A DNA stretch of 43,572 nucleotides from a virus. The stretch spans positions 1 through 43,572 of IMG/VR virus record IMGVR_UViG_3300009374_000008. One strand, written 5' to 3'. The notes below the pieces were generated by a model. It saw only the letters and a program-made list of their open reading frames with translations. It made no database searches and was not told where the DNA came from. This document shows positions 11,738 through 43,572 of the stretch, piece after piece (positions within the stretch are counted from its first letter, which is position 1; each line of letters begins with the position of its first letter). A program made the translations under genes and the position numbers.

Positions 11738-13669
11738 ATGCGACACGGAATCCTCACGCTCCTCGTGCCCCTACTGGCCTTCGCCCTCGCCGCGCCCGCC
11801 GCGGCGCAGTCCTACCTGGATGTGTTGCGCCGGCCGAAGGTGCTCAACGGCGACCTCACCTTCCCGAACATCGAGGCGATCCAGAACGACACGGACGACA
11901 TCGTCTGCTGGGAGGGGCAGGGAGGCACCAACAACACGGACGCCTGCTGGGACCTGGATGGGACGCACCCGGTCCTCTACTCGCACACGGACGCCAGCGT
12001 CGAGATCAACGACGCACTGATCATCGGGGGGGCCATCACCCTGGCCAACGACGAGACGATCAGCAACGCCACCGACGACATGATCGACTTCGGCGGAGCG
12101 GGCGGTGCGGACGACACCGACCTCCGGCTCGACCTCGACGGGGCGCAGCCTACCCTGTCGTCCGTGACCGATACCGCCATCGGGATCGACGACGATCTGA
12201 CCTTCATCGGGGCGCAGCAGATCACCACCAGCGCCGGTGCCCTGACCATCGCCCCGACCACGATCCTCGCCCTGGCCCCGACCACGGACCTCGACGTGAC
12301 GGGCGCCAACCACGACTTCGACCCCACCGGGGCGTTCACGCTCGACATGGACGCGGCGCAGGCGGTGGCTGTCACCCTCGCTGACATGGACGCTGGCTTC
12401 GTTCTGCAGGCGGCGGGCGGCGAGGACATGCTCCTCGTCAACTACTCGGCGGGCACCAAGTCTCTGGCCTTCGGCAACGCGGCGGACAACCCCACGTACG
12501 AGTCCCTCGGGACGGGGGACTGGACCTACGGGGGCGGGCTGCTGATCGAGGGGGCGGCGTCCGGCCTCGACACGAGTGCGGCCGGGCTGCTCAACATCGG
12601 CGTGGCGACGGCGACGAGCATCATCGTCGGGTCGGCCGGGACGACCATCGATCTCCAGACCAGTGATTGGACGCTCGGGACGACCGGCGACATGGCCGGG
12701 ATCGGCGCCATCACGTCGGACGGCGCAGCCACGCTCGACACTGGCGCCGCTGGGTCGTCCTTCGGTGGAGCGCTGACGGTGACGGGGGCGCTCGACGCCG
12801 CCAGTTCGGCCATCGGCGGCGGCTACGGGGCCACGGGCTGCTCGACGAGCGGGGCCGGCGTCTTGCAGTGCAACGGAGCGGCGACCGCGGACGGCGGCGT
12901 CCTGGTCGGGGCCGGGCAGGGGATCACGGTCTCGGCGGCCGGGGCGCTCAACCTCGGCGTCGCCACGGCGACGAGCATCAACGTCGGGCACGCGGGCACG
13001 ACGCTGGCTGTCGTCACATCGGACTGGGGCATCTCGGCAACGGGCGACCTGGCCAACCTCGGGACGGTGCAGGCCGATGGGGACGTGGACCTCACGGCGG
13101 CCGGCGGCGCTACCGGGACGGCCGACCTCGACGTGGCCGGCTACGCGCAGTTCGCAGGGGTCGTGGAGGTCGACGGCCTGCTCGACGCGGACGCCGGGCT
13201 CGACGTGAGCGGCGGCACGGCGGTGTTCACGGGGACGAACGTGGACTTCGATCCCACGGGCGACTTCTACGTGGACCTGGACGCCTCGCAGGACGCCCGC
13301 TTCGTGGTCTCCGACAACTACGCCTCCGCCTTCGTGGTCCGGGAAGGCGCGATGGTCGAGTACATCAAGGTGGACACCACGGACAACTCGGAGATCGTCA
13401 CGTTCGGCAACGGCATGACGAACCCCAACGTCCGGATCGCGGGCGCAGGCGGCTTCCAACTCCCGGTCAACGAGACCCTCGTCCCCGCCGAGCCCGTGGC
13501 CTGCGGCGCCTCGACCGTCGGGTTCGTGCAGTACGTGGACGACGACAACGATGGGGCCATCGCAGAGGTGTGCATCTGCGTCGCGACGGCCGACGACGGT
13601 GTAGGGAATCCGAACGCGTGGGACTGGGTGCAGATGGCGAACCTCGCCGTGGCCTGCAGCTTCTTCTAG
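11738..13669 (+). CDS. Exported repeat-containing fibre-like protein
   Basis: A 643-residue acidic, Ala/Gly/Thr/Asp-rich protein starting with a clear Sec signal (basic MRHG, hydrophobic core, likely cleavage after APAAA about residue 23). Two repeat families are visible: residues ~282-335 repeat at ~401-454 (GVATATSI-VG-AGTT), and ~189-255 at ~499-565 (DFDPTG...D.DA.Q). This suggests a beta-helical or beta-sandwich fibre. The last ~50 residues (VQYVDDDNDG...CICV...WDWVQM) recur in the protein at 26491. An RBS (GGCAGGAGA) precedes ATG 11738. A virion part with a Sec signal is unusual. Confidence 0.75.
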   Translation: MRHGILTLLVPLLAFALAAPAAAQSYLDVLRRPKVLNGDLTFPNIEAIQNDTDDIVCWEGQGGTNNTDACWDLDGTHPVLYSHTDASVEINDALIIGGAITLANDETISNATDDMIDFGGAGGADDTDLRLDLDGAQPTLSSVTDTAIGIDDDLTFIGAQQITTSAGALTIAPTTILALAPTTDLDVTGANHDFDPTGAFTLDMDAAQAVAVTLADMDAGFVLQAAGGEDMLLVNYSAGTKSLAFGNAADNPTYESLGTGDWTYGGGLLIEGAASGLDTSAAGLLNIGVATATSIIVGSAGTTIDLQTSDWTLGTTGDMAGIGAITSDGAATLDTGAAGSSFGGALTVTGALDAASSAIGGGYGATGCSTSGAGVLQCNGAATADGGVLVGAGQGITVSAAGALNLGVATATSINVGHAGTTLAVVTSDWGISATGDLANLGTVQADGDVDLTAAGGATGTADLDVAGYAQFAGVVEVDGLLDADAGLDVSGGTAVFTGTNVDFDPTGDFYVDLDASQDARFVVSDNYASAFVVREGAMVEYIKVDTTDNSEIVTFGNGMTNPNVRIAGAGGFQLPVNETLVPAEPVACGASTVGFVQYVDDDNDGAIAEVCICVATADDGVGNPNAWDWVQMANLAVACSFF

Positions 13670-13693
13670 GCCGCTGGCGGGAGGGAGGCCCTC

Positions 13694-14188
13694 GTGGCAC
13701 TCAACACCTTCGGCGTGACGGCGGCGCTGCTTCAGTCTGACCTCCTCCCGCACTACGCGTTCAACGCCACGTCATCCCCCACGGCCACGGCGGTCGGGAC
13801 CATCGTGACCCGGTTGGCTGCTCGCCTCTGCGGGCACATCCAGCACCGGGGTCTGGACCCGGCCGGCATCGACGCGACCGGCGAGCCCCTCGCCTTCTAC
13901 AACTGCCAGGCCCTGCTGCTGGCGGGGGTGGCTTCGCACGTCGCCCGGGCCTTCACCGGGAAGAAGACGGCGGAGGGCCTCGTCGAGTCCTGGCGGGCTG
14001 AGTGGGAAGAGGGCTTGAAGCGCCTGGCTACGGAGGTCGGGGCGAAGGAGATCCTCGCCGACGCCCTCTCTCGGTCCTCGCATTCGGGCTACGTGCACTC
14101 GCATGTGCACGCGGGGTCGGACCGACCGACGACCGTGGGCGACATCGAGATCGACGATCCCGAGTTCGTGCGGGACATGGACCTGTAG
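13694..14188 (+). CDS. Head-tail connector-like protein
   Basis: A 164-residue mostly helical protein with a C-terminal flexible acidic segment (DIEIDDPEFVRDMDL). It starts at GTG 13694 behind GGGAGG. Size, helix pattern and position between capsid and the Mu gpG-like gene suit the adaptor (gp6/gp15-type) protein that docks on the portal. The sequence itself is not diagnostic, and a histidine-rich loop (SHSGYVHSHVHAG) is unusual. Confidence 0.55.
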   Translation: MALNTFGVTAALLQSDLLPHYAFNATSSPTATAVGTIVTRLAARLCGHIQHRGLDPAGIDATGEPLAFYNCQALLLAGVASHVARAFTGKKTAEGLVESWRAEWEEGLKRLATEVGAKEILADALSRSSHSGYVHSHVHAGSDRPTTVGDIEIDDPEFVRDMDL

Positions 14189-15476: not shown

Positions 15477-16444
15477 GCATCCCCCGCCGCCAGTCCCTCC
15501 TCGCGAAGGTCGAGGCCGTCCCTGGCACCGACCCCACCCCGGTCGGGGCCGACGCCGTCCCGATGATCGACGGGCTGGAGCTGGGGGCCGTCCTGGAGAA
15601 CGGCGAGATCGTCCCTGTCGACGCCTACCTCGACGGCTACAACCATGTCGAGGGGACCATCGTCCTGACGGCGTCGTTCTCGTGCATGCTCAAGGGGTCG
15701 GGCGCCGCGGGCACCGCCCCGGAGATCGCCCCCCTCCTGCGGGCCTGCGGGATGGCGCAAGCAGATGTCGTCGGGCCGCCAGCGTCGAACACCTTCACGC
15801 CCGATAGCGTGTGGAGCGTGGCGGCCGGCGTCGGCTACCAGTCGGCGACGCTCTACATCGAGGACGGCACGCATCAGTGGCAGATGCACGGGTGCTATGG
15901 CACGTGGAGTATCGACTCCAGCATCGTCTCGTTCCCCAAGATCAGCTTCGAGTTCACCGGCCTCTACGAGAAGCCGACGGACCAGGCGACCATCACGACG
16001 CCGACGTACGACGCCACGCGCCCGGTCGCGTGCCGCGGGCTCACGTACAACATCGGGGGCAGCTCCGCCCGGTGTACCGCGTTCAGGCTCGACCTCAACC
16101 GCGAGGTCCACATCGCCCGAAGCCAGGCCGCGGCGTTCGGCGTCGTGGCCATCGAGCTCGGCGCCTGCAATCCGAAGGGGACCTGGTCGATCCAGGAAGA
16201 GACCATCGCCACCCATGATTGGTGGGGGGCGCTGGAGGCCGGGACCGTGCAGGACTTCTCCTGGGTGTGGGGGGGCGCGGCCGGCAACATCGTGACGCTA
16301 GCCCGCCCCGCCGGCAACACGCTCGGCGGCGCCAAGTTCTCCGACCTCAGCCGCGGCGAGGACAACGGGGTCATCTGGCAGGACTTCGGCTTCTCGCTCG
16401 GTCGCCACGCCGGGGACGACTCGTTCTCCTTGGCCTTCACCTAG
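15473..16444 (+). CDS. Major tail tube protein
   Basis: A 323-residue beta-rich protein. The opening RRQSLLAKVEAVPGTDPTP followed by IDGLELGA is the typical start of phage tail tube proteins, and the middle (SVAAGVGYQSATLYIEDGTHQWQMHGCYGTW, ~118-148) and IVSFPKISFEFTGLYEKP (~153-170) fit the same family. It polymerises into the tail channel. It starts at GTG 15473 with a GTGA overlap and is followed by strong hairpins and the chaperone genes, the expected order. Confidence 0.8.
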   Translation: MSIPRRQSLLAKVEAVPGTDPTPVGADAVPMIDGLELGAVLENGEIVPVDAYLDGYNHVEGTIVLTASFSCMLKGSGAAGTAPEIAPLLRACGMAQADVVGPPASNTFTPDSVWSVAAGVGYQSATLYIEDGTHQWQMHGCYGTWSIDSSIVSFPKISFEFTGLYEKPTDQATITTPTYDATRPVACRGLTYNIGGSSARCTAFRLDLNREVHIARSQAAAFGVVAIELGACNPKGTWSIQEETIATHDWWGALEAGTVQDFSWVWGGAAGNIVTLARPAGNTLGGAKFSDLSRGEDNGVIWQDFGFSLGRHAGDDSFSLAFT

Positions 16445-16456
16445 ACCACCACCGTT

Positions 16457-16541
16457 TGCCCCGGGCCTCGGCCCGATGGAGCCCCCAACTACATCGGGAT
16501 CACGCCCGAGGCGCGGGGCATTTCGCCCGGCTCTCGGGCGA
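16457..16541 (+). promoter_or_regulatory. Long nested stem-loop plus second hairpin
   Basis: The 15-base arm at 16457-16471 (TGCCCCGGGCCTCGG) pairs with 16506-16520 with one mismatch. Inside it CCCGATG (16472-16478) pairs with CATCGGG (16492-16498). A second stem TCGCCCG/CGGGCGA (16523-16541) follows. There is no T-run. It separates the abundant tube protein from the low-copy chaperones, so transcript attenuation or 3'-end protection is the likely role. Confidence 0.7.
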
Positions 16542-16574
16542 CGAGGCCCGGACCCTTCAGCGTGAGGAGGATCC

Positions 16575-17066
16575 GTGCCTACTTTCCGCCCCTACCGCCC
16601 CGACGGCGGGACGTACGTCCTGCTGTCAGATCGCGAGCTGCCCGCAGATGTCGAATACGAGACCGAGGAGGCCCGGCAGGCGGCCCTCGATGCCCTCGTC
16701 GACCAGCGAGTCACCTGGCACCACCGCGATCCCCTCCCCTTCGAGATCGCCGAGTTCGAGCAGGCCACCGGCTACATGGACCTCGGGAACGCCGAGATGT
16801 CCAGCGAGGGCGGGAGTGCGCGGTCGGTGAAGGGCCGGCCGCGGTGGGTGAGCCGGGGGCCGACCAACAACGTCCGGGCACTCCTGCGGTTCCTGACGGC
16901 CGTGGAGGGGCAGGGGCCGGACGGTCCGCTCGCCTACCCCGCGGCGGGCACCGACGAGGAACGAGAGCGCTTCCTCGGCATCTTCCGGCAGGTGGACCTC
17001 TACGAGGTGGCGGAGCACATCCTGGGCGACCGCGCCCACCTGACGGAGGACGAGCGGGGAAACTGA
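16575..17066 (+). CDS. Tail assembly chaperone, short form
   Basis: A 163-residue acidic protein that would bind the tape measure during tail assembly (gpG role). It starts at GTG 16575 behind GAGGAGG. Its last codons, CGG GGA AAC TGA, contain the heptamer GGGAAAC in the exact register for -1 slippage. It lies between tube and tape measure genes, the universal place for this pair. The sequence has no other diagnostic motif. Confidence 0.8.
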   Translation: MPTFRPYRPDGGTYVLLSDRELPADVEYETEEARQAALDALVDQRVTWHHRDPLPFEIAEFEQATGYMDLGNAEMSSEGGSARSVKGRPRWVSRGPTNNVRALLRFLTAVEGQGPDGPLAYPAAGTDEERERFLGIFRQVDLYEVAEHILGDRAHLTEDERGN

Positions 17067-38319: not shown

Positions 38320-39092
38320 CTACCCGACACGATTTCGCCAGTCTGGACGTGGCCTGGGCATGCGGGAAGGACAATGACCGCCCGGAGCTCCACGGCGTCC
38401 AGGTCCATCCGGACGGAACGGTGGTCGCGACGACCGGCCACTACGCCGTGACGGTGGATCCGCGCAGCCAGTACGAGAACAAGCTGCCGCCGGCTGGCCC
38501 CGAGGTCTACCCGCAGCCCTTCATCGAGCAGGCGGCGAGGATGGCGAAGGCGGTCAACGGAGTCACGCTGGAGCAGCGGGACGATTGCATCGCCACCGAG
38601 GATCACGAGCAGACGGACATCGCCCTGAAGCCCGCCGTCTACCACCATCCGGTGGGCGACCGGCACAACTTCCCGGACGTGGCCAAGGCGGTGCGGTCCA
38701 TCGAGGAGGCGACCTTCGCGGTGCTGCTCAAGGCCGATCACCTGGCGAAGGCGATGGCTCACGCGAAGCGGGTAGGCACGGGGGCGAACGGCTACATCCG
38801 GCTCATCCTGTTCTCGCCGGGCGAGGCAGAACAGTACACGGACGGGATCGTGATCCAGGTACCGCTGGGGGATGGTCGCTACTCGACGATCTACCTGATG
38901 CCGGCCCGGGACGACGACCATACGTGGGAGCCGGTCATCCAGATGGGGCGGGCGCCCATGAGGACTTGCCAGGTCTGCGGGATGAGCGGCCCGGACGAGT
39001 GCTTCGTGAGAGATGCTTCGGCCCCTGACGGCTACCGGAACAAGTGCCGGGCGTGCCGGGCTGCGGAGAAGCGGGCGGCTCGGGTTAAGTAA
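38316..39092 (+). CDS. Sliding-clamp-like protein with zinc ribbon
   Basis: A 258-residue protein from GTG 38316. LHGVQVHPDGTVVATTGHYAVTVDP (~25-49) matches the DnaN beta-clamp repeat (LxGVxxxxDGxxxATDGHRL), and PDVAKAVRS... ATFAVLLKADHLAKAMAHAK... GIVIQVPLGDGRYSTIYLMP resembles a second clamp-like domain ending. It would encircle DNA and recruit polymerase, but is shorter than DnaN, like phage clamps. The end (residues ~218-247) is a zinc ribbon with CQVC and CRAC, also seen in the regulator at 37261. The clamp call is by pattern only. Confidence 0.5.
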   Translation: MTTRHDFASLDVAWACGKDNDRPELHGVQVHPDGTVVATTGHYAVTVDPRSQYENKLPPAGPEVYPQPFIEQAARMAKAVNGVTLEQRDDCIATEDHEQTDIALKPAVYHHPVGDRHNFPDVAKAVRSIEEATFAVLLKADHLAKAMAHAKRVGTGANGYIRLILFSPGEAEQYTDGIVIQVPLGDGRYSTIYLMPARDDDHTWEPVIQMGRAPMRTCQVCGMSGPDECFVRDASAPDGYRNKCRACRAAEKRAARVK

Positions 39093-39535
39093 TGCGTCCC
39101 CTCGGCGACCTCCCCGGCGTCCTCCGGACCGTCCCGATCCCCGGTGGCCACAAGGTCGTCATCGGGATCAACCGGTCGCCGTTCGGGGGGATCGTCGAGG
39201 TCTTCGTCCACGAAGCGCCCCCGGGTCAGCGGGGCACCGTCAACGGCCTCGTCCGGTCGGTCAGCGGAGCGCTCCAGGAGGGCGTGCCGATCCGACGGGT
39301 CGTGCGGATGCTGCGGGGCCTCGCTGACGGGGAGGAAGTTCGGTGGGGGCCGGGGCCGGGCCAAGCGGTCAGGTCGTTGCCGGATGCGCTGGGCCGGGTC
39401 CTCGCTGAGGCAGCGGGCCAGGAAGTCCGGCGTCCTATGTGGCCCCCGCCGGGGCCTCGGTGCCGGTGCGGGCCGCCGCGCGCCCTCGGGCATTCGGGGC
39501 GATGCGCGTCGTTCGGAGGATGGAGGAGATCATGA
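39092..39535 (+). CDS. TSCPD-domain protein
   Basis: A 147-residue protein. HKVVIGINRSPFGGIVEVFVHEA (~20-42), then NGLVRSVSGALQEGVPIRRVVRMLRGL (~51-77) matches the TSCPD domain found at the C-terminus of B12-dependent ribonucleotide reductases (NrdJ) and in stand-alone form in phages. The C-terminal RCRCGPPRALGHSG adds a short Cys part. ATG 39092 overlaps the upstream TAA (TAATG). Possibly a partner or regulator of host reductase; enzyme activity of its own is not expected. Confidence 0.7.
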   Translation: MRPLGDLPGVLRTVPIPGGHKVVIGINRSPFGGIVEVFVHEAPPGQRGTVNGLVRSVSGALQEGVPIRRVVRMLRGLADGEEVRWGPGPGQAVRSLPDALGRVLAEAAGQEVRRPMWPPPGPRCRCGPPRALGHSGRCASFGGWRRS

Positions 39536-40548
39536 GCGAGTGGCGAATCGAGGTCGTGCGGATCGGCGAGGTGGAGCACCATCCCAACGCCGACCGTCTG
39601 GACACCACCCACGTGCACGGGGGCTACCCGTGCATCGTCCGGCGGGGGGAATTCGCCCCGAGAGATTTCGCCGTCTACATCCCCGTCGACACGCTCCTCC
39701 CAGCAGATGACCCGCGCTGGGACTGGCTGGCGAAGGGCCGGACGCCAGTGAGCAGCGACGGCCGGCTGTACCACCGGATCCGGGCGGTGAAGTTGCGGGG
39801 CGTCTTCTCCATGGGGCTGCTAGTACCGTGCCCCGGCGGCCATTCCGTGGGCGATGACCTGGCCGAGACGTTCGGGGCCCGCAAGTACGAGCCGCCCGAA
39901 CCGACGGTCATGGGCGGCGAGAACGAGAAGGATCCGGGATTCCTTCCGGTGTACGACGTCGAGGCCCTTCGGCGGCACCCGGACGTGCTTCGGGAAGGCG
40001 AGGACGTGGTCATCACCGAGAAGATCCACGGGGCGAATGGCCGCTGGGCCTGGCACCGAAACCGTCTGTGGGTGGCGTCCCACCGCTGCTTCAAGCGGGC
40101 ACCCGAGGACTCCGCCGAGGGAACGCCGCCAGTCATCTGGTGGCGGGTGGCGGTGGAGTACAGGCTGGCGAAGGTACTTGCCGAGCATCCGGGACTCGCG
40201 ATCTACGGCGAGGTCTTCGGCCGGGTCCAGGATCTCCGGTGCGGTGGCGGGCTGCAGCTCGCCGTGTTCGACATGCTGGACATCACGTCCCGCCGCTGGC
40301 TGGACTTCAACGAAGCGCAGGAGATGGTGGCGGCGCTAGGGCTCCCCTGGGTGCCCGTCCTCTACCGCGGCCCGTGGAGTCCGGACCTCGTCTCCCACGC
40401 CGAAGGCCAGTCCACGCGAGGCGTCCATGTCCGGGAGGGGATCGTGATCCGGCCGACGGTCGAGCGATGGGATGACGGGATCGGTCGAGTGCAGCTCAAG
40501 ATGCACGGAGAGGGCTACCTGACGCGCAAGAAGGGGAAGCGGCCATGA
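39532..40548 (+). CDS. RNA ligase, nucleotidyltransferase family (Rnl-like)
   Basis: A 338-residue ATP-dependent ligase sealing RNA ends. All main motifs are visible: motif I EKIHGANG with Lys164, motif III-like IYGEVFG (~220), motif IV REGIVIRP (~303) and motif V QLKMHG. Before the catalytic domain, residues ~5-105 resemble an OB-fold (EVEHHPNADRLDTTHVHG, AVKLRGVFSMGLLVP), as in the DraRnl-type ligases. Start ATG 39532 has GGAGGAG and an ATGA overlap. With two tRNA genes nearby, repair of cut tRNAs is plausible; no 5'-kinase is seen here. Confidence 0.85.
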   Translation: MSEWRIEVVRIGEVEHHPNADRLDTTHVHGGYPCIVRRGEFAPRDFAVYIPVDTLLPADDPRWDWLAKGRTPVSSDGRLYHRIRAVKLRGVFSMGLLVPCPGGHSVGDDLAETFGARKYEPPEPTVMGGENEKDPGFLPVYDVEALRRHPDVLREGEDVVITEKIHGANGRWAWHRNRLWVASHRCFKRAPEDSAEGTPPVIWWRVAVEYRLAKVLAEHPGLAIYGEVFGRVQDLRCGGGLQLAVFDMLDITSRRWLDFNEAQEMVAALGLPWVPVLYRGPWSPDLVSHAEGQSTRGVHVREGIVIRPTVERWDDGIGRVQLKMHGEGYLTRKKGKRP

Positions 40549-40775: not shown

Positions 40776-40979
40776 ATGTCCTGGGGCATCGTGCACGAGA
40801 CCTGGCGGGGCTACATGCCCGCGGCCCGGATACGGGGCGACGCCGAGGACTACGCCGAGCCGACGCCCCAGCCCGAGCAGCGGTGGTGTCCGTCGTGTGA
40901 GCGGTGGTGGTGGTCCGACGAACGCGGGGCGCCCGCCGCCGACGGGGAGGAATGCGGATGGTGCAGGAGGGGGAGATGA
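40776..40979 (+). CDS. Small zinc-ribbon protein
   Basis: A 67-residue protein from ATG 40776 directly after the previous stop. CPSC (~38-41) and CGWC (~60-63) form a zinc knuckle around WWWSDERG. The N-terminal half is aromatic (SWGIVHETWRGYMPAARIRG). The gene ends in an ATGA overlap with the transglycosylase-like gene, so it may act in that pathway. Not recognised. Confidence 0.6.
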   Translation: MSWGIVHETWRGYMPAARIRGDAEDYAEPTPQPEQRWCPSCERWWWSDERGAPAADGEECGWCRRGR

Positions 40980-41584
40980 TCCCTTACGCATCCCGCACAG
41001 GCACCCGTCGGAACCTGGAGGCCCTGCGCTTGGCCGGGTGGAGGATGCTCCTCGCCCCCGCGGCTCCGTGGCTTCCCGACGGCTTCCAGTACGCCCTCGA
41101 CAACGGCGCCTGGACTGCCTACAGCCAGGAACGGCCATGGGATGAGGGTGCCTTCAGGGCGCTCGTGGCTAAGTACGGCGAAGACGCTGACTGGATCGTC
41201 GCCCCGGATATCGTTGGAGATGGCTTGAAGTCCCTGGACCTCTCGCTGACCTACTTCGATTGGCTCCACGCCCAGACTTGCCTCGTCCTCCTCGCCGTGC
41301 AGGATGGCATGATTTTCGCCGATGTGGAGTCGGTGCTGGGTCCCCGCACGGGCGTCTTTATCGGCGGTTCCACCGAATGGAAGGAACAGGCCATCCCTGT
41401 CTGGGGCCCGTGGTGCGCTGAGCGGGGCGTCTGGTGCCACGTCGGCCGGGTCAACGCTCGCCGTCGGATTCGTTCCTGCGCCCTGGCCCGGTGTACGAGT
41501 TTTGACGGGAGTTCCGGTTCCCGGTTTTCGGTGAACGTTCCGTGGATGGACGAAGAACGCCGGCAAGGAGTGCTGCTATGGTGA
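40976..41584 (+). CDS. DpdA-like DNA guanine transglycosylase
   Basis: A 202-residue enzyme of the tRNA-guanine transglycosylase relatives used by phages to swap guanine in DNA for a 7-deazaguanine. Marks: YALDNGAWTAY (~39-49), WIVAPDIVGD (~73-82), FIGGSTEWKEQ (~128-138), HVGRVNARRRI (~155-165) and TSFDGSSGSRF (~174-184). These match my memory of the short DpdA2-type family. Likely catalytic acids are Asp42, Asp78 and Asp177. The next gene is queD, which strengthens the call. The start ATG 40976 has GGAGGGGGAG and overlaps the upstream stop. Substrate base not determined. Confidence 0.75.
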   Translation: MIPYASRTGTRRNLEALRLAGWRMLLAPAAPWLPDGFQYALDNGAWTAYSQERPWDEGAFRALVAKYGEDADWIVAPDIVGDGLKSLDLSLTYFDWLHAQTCLVLLAVQDGMIFADVESVLGPRTGVFIGGSTEWKEQAIPVWGPWCAERGVWCHVGRVNARRRIRSCALARCTSFDGSSGSRFSVNVPWMDEERRQGVLLW

Positions 41585-42006
41585 CCACTGTCACGATTCG
41601 CCTGACATGGAACGCCGCCCACCGTCTCGCCACCCATGATCACTGCAAACGTCTCCACGGCCATCGCTACGTGGCTGAGATCGAAGTCGCCGGCCCCATC
41701 GGAGACGACGGCATGATCATTGACTTCGCCATCCTCAAGACGTACGTGGGCGGCTGGATCGGCACCCACTGGGACCACGGCGTCATCCTCGCCGAAGACG
41801 ACCACGACGCCATCCAAGCGCTGTCCGCCATGCCCGGGCACCGCTCCACGACGCCAGCCCCCCCGACGGCCGAGACCTTGGCAGGGGTGCTCTTCAAGAA
41901 GGCGAACAAGCAACTTCACGCTCGGGGCGTTGAGGTCATCCGAGTCCGGGTCTACGAAACGCCGGATTGCTGGGCGGAAGTGATGAGCAGGAGGGGGAAT
42001 CGGTGA
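41578..42006 (+). CDS. queD: 6-carboxy-tetrahydropterin synthase (QueD)
   Basis: A 142-residue enzyme turning dihydroneopterin triphosphate into 6-carboxy-tetrahydropterin, the second step toward preQ0. Zinc ligands His15 (NAAHRL), His27 and His29 (LHGHRY), catalytic Cys23 (DHCKRLHGH), Asp-His 66-67 (THWDHG) and the Glu of YETPDCW are all in place, as in bacterial QueD. GMIIDFAILK and PTAETLA complete the family pattern. ATG 41578 has CAAGGAG and overlaps the previous gene by seven bases; a GTGA overlap follows. FolE, QueE and QueC are not seen here. Confidence 0.88.
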   Translation: MVTTVTIRLTWNAAHRLATHDHCKRLHGHRYVAEIEVAGPIGDDGMIIDFAILKTYVGGWIGTHWDHGVILAEDDHDAIQALSAMPGHRSTTPAPPTAETLAGVLFKKANKQLHARGVEVIRVRVYETPDCWAEVMSRRGNR

Positions 42007-42830
42007 AGCAGCTCGCCCTGCCCGGCGCCGGGCTGACCCTCGACGAAGTGCTGCCTCGGTCGGTGGAGGCCATCCGCACCTTCGCCCCAAAGGACGGCCC
42101 CTACTACGGACTGTTCTCGGGCGGGAAGGACTCGGTCGCGCTGCGGGAGGTGGCCCGAATGGCGGGGATGGACGTGATTTGGCACTACAACGTCACCACT
42201 ATCGACCCGCCCGAACTGGTCCGCTTCATCAAGCAGCACCACCCCAACGTGTTGTGGGTGCGGTCGCCGCATGGTCCGTTCTTCCGGCGGGCGGCCGAGG
42301 TCAAGGGCTTACCCACGCGCGTCGCCCGCTGGTGCTGCGAGGAGTACAAGGAAGCCCGGTCACCCCGAGGGGCTCGTCTCCTGATGGGCATCCGGGCGGC
42401 TGAGTCGCCGCGTCGGGCGAAGACGTGGGGACTCGTCACACACCACGCCCGGACTCGTTCCCAGGCGATCAACCCCCTGATCCACTGGCCGGATGACGTT
42501 CTCTGGGAGTTCATCCGCGGCGCCGGGCTGCCCTACTCGGAACTATACGACGAGGGCTTCCGCCGTCTCGGGTGCGTGGGCTGCCCGATGGCCTACACGA
42601 AGATCCGAATCCGGGAATTCGAGCGCTGGCCGCGGTTCGAGCGCCGCTGGCGATGGGTGTTCGAGCGGGTCTGGAAGCGCAAGCACGGAACGATGCAGCG
42701 GGATGGGCGGCAGTGGTTCGGAGACCGGTACTTCTCCGGCTGGGAGGAGATGTGGTCCTGGTGGTTGCATGACGAACGTCTGCCCGGCCAGAAGGACGAG
42801 TGCCAGGGGACGCTGGAGATGTGGGCGTGA
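42003..42830 (+). CDS. PP-loop (PAPS/APS reductase-like) enzyme with Fe-S cysteines
   Basis: A 275-residue enzyme with the PP-loop SGGKDS (39-44), which binds ATP or an adenylate. Cys111-Cys112 (RWCCEEYK) and Cys191-x2-Cys194 (GCVGCPM) lie about 80 residues apart, the spacing of the 4Fe-4S site of APS reductases. The C-terminal catalytic ECGLH is missing; only DECQG is present. So it probably does another sulfur or base-activation reaction, like DndC or TtuA-type PP-loop proteins. Placed right after queD, it may act on the modified base. GTG 42003 has AGGAGGGGG and a GTGA overlap. Confidence 0.75.
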   Translation: MKQLALPGAGLTLDEVLPRSVEAIRTFAPKDGPYYGLFSGGKDSVALREVARMAGMDVIWHYNVTTIDPPELVRFIKQHHPNVLWVRSPHGPFFRRAAEVKGLPTRVARWCCEEYKEARSPRGARLLMGIRAAESPRRAKTWGLVTHHARTRSQAINPLIHWPDDVLWEFIRGAGLPYSELYDEGFRRLGCVGCPMAYTKIRIREFERWPRFERRWRWVFERVWKRKHGTMQRDGRQWFGDRYFSGWEEMWSWWLHDERLPGQKDECQGTLEMWA

Positions 42831-42916
42831 CCCTCCGCCCCTACCAGGCCGAGGCCGTCGCCTTGACGCGCAAGCCGTCCCGGGACAGCCTAGAGTGGCT
42901 GGCCCGGGACATAGGT
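42827..42916 (+). pseudogene. Stranded start of a helicase gene
   Basis: GTG 42827 overlaps the previous TGA (GTGA), the standard coupling of this operon, and reads VTLRPYQAEAVA, the Q-motif-like start of superfamily 2 helicases. After about 25 residues it loses resemblance to the family and runs into the 3' end of the opposing gene. A second LRPYQ start begins at 43458. So the original start seems cut off by the intervening gene. Confidence 0.55.
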
Positions 42917-43369
42917 CTAGTCGTCCTCCGACTTCAGGATCTCGTTGAACCGGGCCAGCAGCAGTGCGTTTCCGCGATCTGTCGCCTTCGTGCGGGCGCT
43001 CCCGTTGCTTGGGAGTGGATCCAGGGGGATGTTCCGGTTCTTCCGGTAGTCCGCCGCGAGCTGCCGGCAAGCCGGGAGGGTCTGCCCGGTGACCTCCATG
43101 ACGTCCTCGATGGCGCCCCCGGCCTTCACGACTCGCGCCCACGTCTCAATGAAGAGCAGCGGCGTGGTGCGCTTGGCCTGCGGGATCGCGGGATTGCTCG
43201 GCTGTCCGTTCAGTCGGAGGATGGCCTCCGGGGGGGCGTTGTTGAGGCCCCATGCCAAGAGCCGGCCATTGTAGTCCTTCCGCGTCATCTCTTCCTTCAC
43301 CGCCTTCTCGTGGAGGCGGGCGTGCTCCTCCGCCGTGACGTACGCTCGAGCCTCGATGGTGGGAATCAT
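42917..43369 (-). CDS. Ribbon-helix-helix-like protein opposing the operon
   Basis: A 150-residue protein on the minus strand. EARAYVTAEEHARLHEKAVKEEMTRKDYNGRLLAWGL (~6-42) resembles a ribbon-helix-helix: a strand, then two helices. The rest is helical and basic, ending DRGNALLLARFNEILKSEDD. ATG 43369 is chosen for GGAGGA five bases upstream; ATG 43384 adds five residues. It lies inside what looks like a helicase gene, so it is probably an inserted moron or regulator. Family not recognised. Confidence 0.65.
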   Translation of the reverse strand: MIPTIEARAYVTAEEHARLHEKAVKEEMTRKDYNGRLLAWGLNNAPPEAILRLNGQPSNPAIPQAKRTTPLLFIETWARVVKAGGAIEDVMEVTGQTLPACRQLAADYRKNRNIPLDPLPSNGSARTKATDRGNALLLARFNEILKSEDD

Positions 43370-43382
43370 AATGTCCTCCGAC

Positions 43383-43572
43383 ATGGCCAGTAGTGTGGCG
43401 CTACCCTACCCCAAAGCGAAGGGGGAGTCTAGCCCTTTTGCTGGCACGTCCCCGCTGGTGTTGCGCCCCTACCAACGGGAAGCTGCGGCCGCCGGCCGGG
43501 CGGGCTGGAAGGCGGGGGACCTGGCGGGGCTCTGCGTCCTCCCGACGGTCGCGGGCAAGACGGTCCTCGCCG
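43383..43572 (+). CDS. Superfamily 2 DEAD/DEAH-type helicase, N-terminal part
   Basis: The window ends inside this gene. From ATG 43383 (or GTG 43458) it reads to LRPYQREAAAAGRAG and CVLPTVAGKTVLA, the Q-motif-like start and Walker A (motif I) of UvrB/RecG/DEAH-type helicases. Walker A has VAGKT instead of the common GSGKT or GAGKT. The first 25 residues from ATG 43383 are unlike helicases, so GTG 43458 may be the native start. TACCCT at 43403-43408 could be a -10 for it. Confidence 0.7.
   Translation, partial: MASSVALPYPKAKGESSPFAGTSPLVLRPYQREAAAAGRAGWKAGDLAGLCVLPTVAGKTVLA

Follow-up and report, generated by a model that had tools for sequence, protein, structure and literature searches.

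Do three overlapping genes near the right end of a phage contig form one pathway for deazaguanine modification of DNA, and does the third of them, encoding a PP-loop protein, act on the modified base? The contig, IMGVR_UViG_3300009374_000008, is a linear record of 43,572 bp, and the window analyzed here covers the whole record. It encodes a terminase, a portal and a tape measure protein, which points to a tailed phage. The three genes are located on the + strand. The first gene (positions 40976–41584, ATG start) encodes a 202-residue protein (P0001) that was assigned as a short DpdA, or minimal tRNA-guanine transglycosylase (TGT)-fold protein, using AlphaFold, Foldseek and hhalign. The second gene (41578–42006) encodes a 142-residue QueD (6-carboxytetrahydropterin synthase; P0002; PF01242, E = 7.7e-28). 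The third gene (42003–42830, GTG start) encodes a 275-residue PP-loop ATP-pyrophosphatase-type protein of the PAPS-reductase superfamily (P0003; PF01507 PAPS_reduct, E = 2.5e-20). Each gene has many homologues on other viral contigs, so none of the three is a chance call. An earlier sequence-only reading of this locus had placed the three genes at the same positions, with mutual overlaps of 7 and 4 bases, and this layout was borne out. The tight coupling that it emphasized is real but is not special to the cassette. A 4-base overlap (40976/40979) also joins the 5′ neighbor gene to the cassette, and on the 3′ side the next frame begins at 42827 and overlaps the P0003 stop by 4 bases. Since the 4-base overlaps continue into the neighbor genes on either flank, the coupling carries little weight and was dropped as a sign of a single pathway.

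The region just 5′ of the cassette (39092–40548) contains the genes for a TSCPD-domain protein (PF12637, 1.9e-11) and for an RNA ligase with an OB-fold N-terminus (PF09414, 3e-25). On the 3′ side (42827–43571), the frame that overlaps the P0003 stop by 4 bases is a helicase-like start (VTLRPYQAEAVAL) that then breaks off. It is followed by a − strand ORF (42917–43384) without a Pfam or PHROG match, and a second helicase-like start (VLRPYQREAAAAG...VAGKTVLA) continues past the contig end. This region looks like a helicase start that was duplicated about an inserted small gene. The third-position GC content is 0.77 in the short DpdA gene and 0.81 in queD, compared with about 0.9 for the majority of genes elsewhere in the window, and the two genes may have been acquired recently.

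The short DpdA protein produced zero matches to Pfam and NCBIfam models, including the NCBIfam DpdA and Pfam TGT models, and belongs to PHROG 15826 (2.6e-43), which is listed as ‘unknown function’. A sequence search against PDB chains gave no useful match, so a fold model was required. The AlphaFold model, which was built using an alignment of 54 family sequences (A3), adopts a small β-α (TIM) barrel with a mean pLDDT of 94.4. In a Foldseek search of the PDB, tRNA-guanine transglycosylases compose most of the top 50 matches, with a probability of 1.00, an E-value of about 1e-4 and a TM-score of about 0.6 over the query. Ribulose-phosphate epimerases, which are other barrels, are also observed among the matches.

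The D42, D78, Q109, G130-G131 and D177 residues of the short DpdA are invariant in the 54 members of the alignment. In an hhalign comparison of the family with Escherichia coli Tgt (single-pair E = 0.0019 against the TGT profile), D78, Q109, G130-131 and D177 correspond to D143, Q187, G213-214 and D264, respectively. Asp177 (41504–41506, + strand) is thereby the counterpart of the TGT nucleophile Asp264 and is set on FDCVMPTR of E. coli Tgt and on SADGSS of DpdA. The family aligns more strongly with a profile of full-length phage DpdA (E = 1.3e-5) than with TGT, and a search of 38,477 pooled ORFs with the family profile recovers full-length DpdA with weak significance (E = 0.0012). The full-length DpdA proteins used in the comparison match NF041059 and PF01702. 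In the DpdA alignment, Asp42 (41099–41101, + strand) is set on the Asp of D-x-GAW, and H155 is set on the His of LHVLGL. Asp42 is the counterpart of TGT Asp89 (E. coli numbering), a pairing that is based on motif order via DpdA. The predicted structure and the conserved residues support the identity of this protein as a minimal TGT/DpdA-fold protein.

The short DpdA proteins constitute a large, mostly unannotated phage family, with 413 IMG/VR loci found for clade I and 99 for clade II (actinophage type). At least one of queC, queD, queE and folE is located within 3 kb of the short DpdA gene at 25 of 72 non-redundant clade I loci, and Que genes are found at the same distance at 8 of 63 non-redundant clade II loci. 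The corresponding count is 0 of 67 for the DnaB helicase (p = 6e-9 for clade I and 0.002 for clade II); this control is one gene family from the replication module, and the family loci are the best-scoring 80 rather than a random sample. The neighboring Que genes are authentic by Pfam and NCBIfam (QueC, PF06508, 5e-42; QueE, TIGR04508, 7e-83; FolE, PF01227, 1e-40). The short DpdA family is thus tied to preQ0 genes, with about 65% of its loci lacking a nearby Que gene. The sequence-only reading had taken the first gene as DpdA-like, and a check of its fold as a possible refutation instead placed the predicted structure in the transglycosylase fold; the active-site residues and the family’s tie to preQ0 genes agree with that assignment. 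In one locus (L108, 736–1947), a single 404-residue frame contains both a short DpdA and a QueD, and queC overlaps it upstream. This frame possibly encodes a fusion protein, with a sequencing error in the metagenomic contig as an alternative. During iteration, the QueD profile began to pick up short DpdA sequences, most likely as a result of this two-domain ORF, and it was rebuilt from trimmed sequences.

Arthrobacter phage Sonali (L006) and the L050 locus each contain a short DpdA gene plus a second, larger TGT-like gene. The larger gene is accompanied by queC, queD, queE and folE, and ParB-like genes are located within or beside the cluster. The co-occurrence suggests that the two transglycosylase-like proteins differ in their jobs, and the short form may have another function. 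The short DpdA of the window could then use the same fold for a different deazaguanine step, such as base removal or exchange in tRNA or competing DNA, rather than function as a DNA guanine transglycosylase. Such a role would also fit the missing zinc and C-terminal parts and the failure of the NCBIfam DpdA model to detect the protein. It is nonetheless quite improbable, given that the catalytic Asp pair, the pocket residues and the DpdA-matching His are all invariant and that the family occurs in a phage setting with a link to preQ0 genes.

The QueD protein is complete, as had been proposed, with every active-site residue of E. coli QueD kept. Its H15, C23, H27, H29, D66, H67 and E127 residues align with the E. 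coli active site and provide the zinc-binding His triad, the CxxxHGH motif, the Asp-His pair and the Glu. From the FolE-QueD-QueE-QueC-DpdA set, the 43,572-bp record contains QueD and the short DpdA, and no QueC, FolE or radical-SAM (QueE) gene was found in it. The linear record ends 742 bp 3′ of the cassette, so the lack of folE, queE and queC applies to the record, and the phage may still encode them. FolE, QueD, QueE, QueC and DpdA together lead to dPreQ0, and insertion into the DNA of phage CAjan requires DpdA (PMC6884629). Phages with DpdA only can draw on host preQ0, or their DNA stays unmodified; the DNA of Salmonella phage 7-11 is modified with dADG, and that of mycobacteriophage Orion, in which DpdA is the sole gene of this type, is unmodified (PMC6884629).

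The AlphaFold model of the PP-loop protein has a pLDDT of 92.4, and its closest PDB neighbors by Foldseek are APS/PAPS reductases, followed by FAD synthase, ATP sulfurylase and the Fe-S thiolase TtuA. Motifs were counted in 141 non-redundant relatives. The ATP-binding PP motif SGGKDS (42117–42134, + strand) is kept in 132 relatives, the Cys-Cys pair C111-C112 (42333–42338, + strand) in 140 and the CxxC motif (C191 and C194 in GCxxC; 42573–42584, + strand) in all 141. The CC-x78-CxxC pattern noticed earlier is exact, with 78 residues between C112 and C191, and the ECGLH motif, noted as lacking from P0003, is also missing from every relative (0/141). On the basis of the four cysteines in the sequence, the protein probably holds an Fe-S site. 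Its C-terminal Cys (in ECQGTLEMWA) is non-conserved, and a C-terminal Cys is found in 60 of the 141 relatives. SGGxDS is an ATP-pyrophosphatase loop, and the Cys of ECGLH is the reductase nucleophile. E. coli CysH contains SSSFGIQ in place of SGGKDS, plus ECGLH. With SGGKDS intact and ECGLH missing, the PP-loop protein should be an ATP-dependent adenylating enzyme and not a reductase, and a true PAPS/APS reductase encoded as a sulfur AMG was rejected on the same grounds. The TIGR02055 model scored 41 bits on the protein against a cut-off of 235, and no match to the DndC model TIGR03183 was obtained up to E = 0.1.

The record lacks QueC, and QueC and the PP-loop protein are both ATP pyrophosphatases, which would be in line with the earlier proposal that the PP-loop protein replaces QueC, a role in which it would convert CDG to preQ0. 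The QueC profile, however, did not match the protein (E = 0.14), the Pfam search likewise did not identify it as QueC, and the zinc-binding Cys motif of QueC is missing. Among the structures singled out beforehand for comparison, APS/PAPS reductases and TtuA appeared as neighbors, but QueC was missing from the top 50 PDB matches. Moreover, relatives of the protein are found in phages without QueD, and the contig is open at an end 742 bp away. A QueC replacement was therefore discarded on profile and structure and is highly improbable.

A role of the PP-loop protein elsewhere in the deazaguanine pathway was evaluated from its relatives. Its subfamily comprises 316 viral loci and 114 loci in 84,980 cellular genomes. 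Of 50 viral records with a member of the family, 1 contains QueD. Non-redundant sets of 67 viral and 67 cellular loci showed no Que gene at a distance of up to 3 kb; the redundancy filter had dropped L128 from this count while keeping its 86%-identical relative. Because the family almost never occurs with Que genes, the proposals that the protein modifies the base or its precursor or substitutes for QueC are weakened. The only other linked case is L013/L128, with the order full DpdA–QueD–PP-loop. In L129 and L192, a PP-loop homologue 86% identical to that of L013/L128 does not have dpdA or queD beside it. Conversely, L449 and L450 contain DpdA–QueD pairs 75% identical to that of L013 without a PP-loop gene. 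These cases argue that DpdA–QueD and the PP-loop gene are two separable units.

The full-length DpdA of L013 carries a DUF6884 domain fused to its C-terminus (PF21818, 2.6e-38), and in Halorubrum virus HRTV-29 (L453, 4989–6114) a separate YaaA/DUF6884-like gene overlaps dpdA. The overlapping gene and the fused domain suggest that DUF6884 works with DpdA. HRTV-29 is described as encoding DpdA as well as a PAPS gene (PMC8651126); the 5-kb flanks of its DpdA region contain no gene annotated as PAPS. In L112, two more PAPS-type PP-loop genes (13160–13981 and 15688–16770) are located less than 8 kb from a P0003 homologue.

PAPS-type PP-loop genes in general are observed within 3 kb of short DpdA at 9 of 135 loci, versus 0 of 67 control loci (p = 0.024), and in 7 of 8 records that contain a short DpdA and such a gene above the cut-off, the two lie within 2 kb of each other. 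This closeness is a weak signal that could reflect a shared function, and a pathway role for the PP-loop protein was kept as a rival explanation on this basis. In such a role, the protein would use ATP to activate a carboxylate, nitrile or amide at position 7 of the precursor or inserted base and add sulfur or nitrogen, generating, for example, a thioamide base. The direct overlap between its gene and queD, the recurrence of the gene order in L013/L128 and the presence of the Fe-S thiolase TtuA among the structural neighbors would be consistent with this role. PP-loop genes of several subfamilies also adjoin short DpdA in L081 (with QueD), L037 (with QueC), L095/R6L, L366/ReqiPine5, L370, L391 and L427. 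In contrast, the protein’s own subfamily is almost always found without Que genes, the L129/L192 and L449/L450 loci each contain one unit without the other, and the rates over whole records (4/50 and 4/40 short-DpdA records versus 2/50 control records) are not clearly raised; the idea that short-DpdA phages are broadly enriched in PAPS genes was rejected as the whole-record difference was not significant. Overall, a pathway role is doubtful. A chemically new base in phage DNA is possible. The extended proposal that the protein acts on the cassette’s deazaguanine to produce an undescribed phage DNA base, such as one with a sulfur-bearing 7-substituent, and that different phages recruit different PAPS-type PP-loop enzymes, is a more speculative and rather unlikely idea.

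We favor, with moderate confidence, the view that the short DpdA and QueD make up a compact cassette for deazaguanine modification of DNA and that the ATP-dependent, Fe-S-type enzyme encoded next to them is probably independent of it. In the favored scheme, QueD would raise the supply of the preQ0 precursor, and the FolE, QueE and QueC steps would be supplied by the host or by genes past the contig end. The short DpdA corresponds to a transglycosylase core that lacks the zinc and C-terminal parts found in tRNA TGT; it would replace some guanines of the phage DNA with preQ0 or one of its derivatives, and the resulting deazaguanine may protect the DNA from restriction. The PP-loop protein would bind ATP at the SGGKDS loop, have a four-Cys, probably Fe-S, site and adenylate its substrate, after which sulfur or another nucleophile would displace AMP. 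Because its family is phage-wide and works without deazaguanine genes, we infer that its target is most likely another nucleic acid or nucleotide and that it is a mere neighbor of the cassette.

The occurrence of DpdA and preQ0 genes in phages is already established (PMC6884629). A literature search, incomplete in coverage, found no paper on a short DpdA with a PP-loop partner. The present analysis links PHROG 15826, a large phage family listed under ‘unknown function’, with deazaguanine modification of DNA and defines a minimal transglycosylase core well suited to expression and testing. In addition, it sets the common, misnamed phage ‘PAPS reductases’ of the P0003 subfamily apart from sulfate reduction and from QueC, and it names specific loci where a link between PP-loop proteins and base modification is testable.

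The short DpdA has in common with the DpdA proteins of phages and bacterial dpd islands (NF041059; 9g, CAjan, Rosebush and DpdA2 of nt-1) a TGT-type barrel, the motif order D-x-GA, APD, GG, H-x-G and D-G-S, a phage setting and nearby preQ0 genes. It differs in its length (202 residues versus 372–434 for the full-length homologues compared), in its missing zinc and C-terminal part and in its distance, which is too large for the NCBIfam DpdA model. The short ‘DpdA-like tRNA-guanine transglycosylases’ of Mycobacterium cluster P and Arthrobacter phages (Majeke gp54, Aoka gp40 and Sonali gp81) belong to the same family, with equal length and about 31–35% identity. Unlike in the window, none of the three adjoins a QueD or PP-loop gene, and Sonali contains a full que cluster 2.4 kb from its short DpdA. 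Erythrobacter phage R6L gp10 (49% identity) and Rhodococcus phage ReqiPine5 gp03 (31% identity) are also short DpdA proteins, with a PAPS-type PP-loop gene less than 1 kb away. Those PP-loop genes belong to subfamilies other than that of P0003, and no QueD gene adjoins them.

The PP-loop protein resembles the phage ‘PAPS reductase’ of PHROG 424 and that of Methanosarcina virus MetMV as a member of the PAPS-reductase superfamily in mobile elements. The function of phage PAPS-reductase homologues is debated and perhaps extends beyond sulfur metabolism (PMC11437467). Type IV-B CasCysH and DndC are distant functional analogues, and CasCysH of the Type IV-B CRISPR system likewise lacks the catalytic Cys (PMC8175902). 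In the neighborhood of P0003, no csf, dnd or brx partners were noticed. The assimilatory APS reductase (CysH of the 4Fe-4S type; 2goy and 7lhr) shares its fold and CC-x78-CxxC-type cysteines with the PP-loop protein but combines an altered PP loop with ECGLH, whereas the PP-loop protein retains an intact SGGKDS loop and, like all 141 of its relatives, dispenses with ECGLH.
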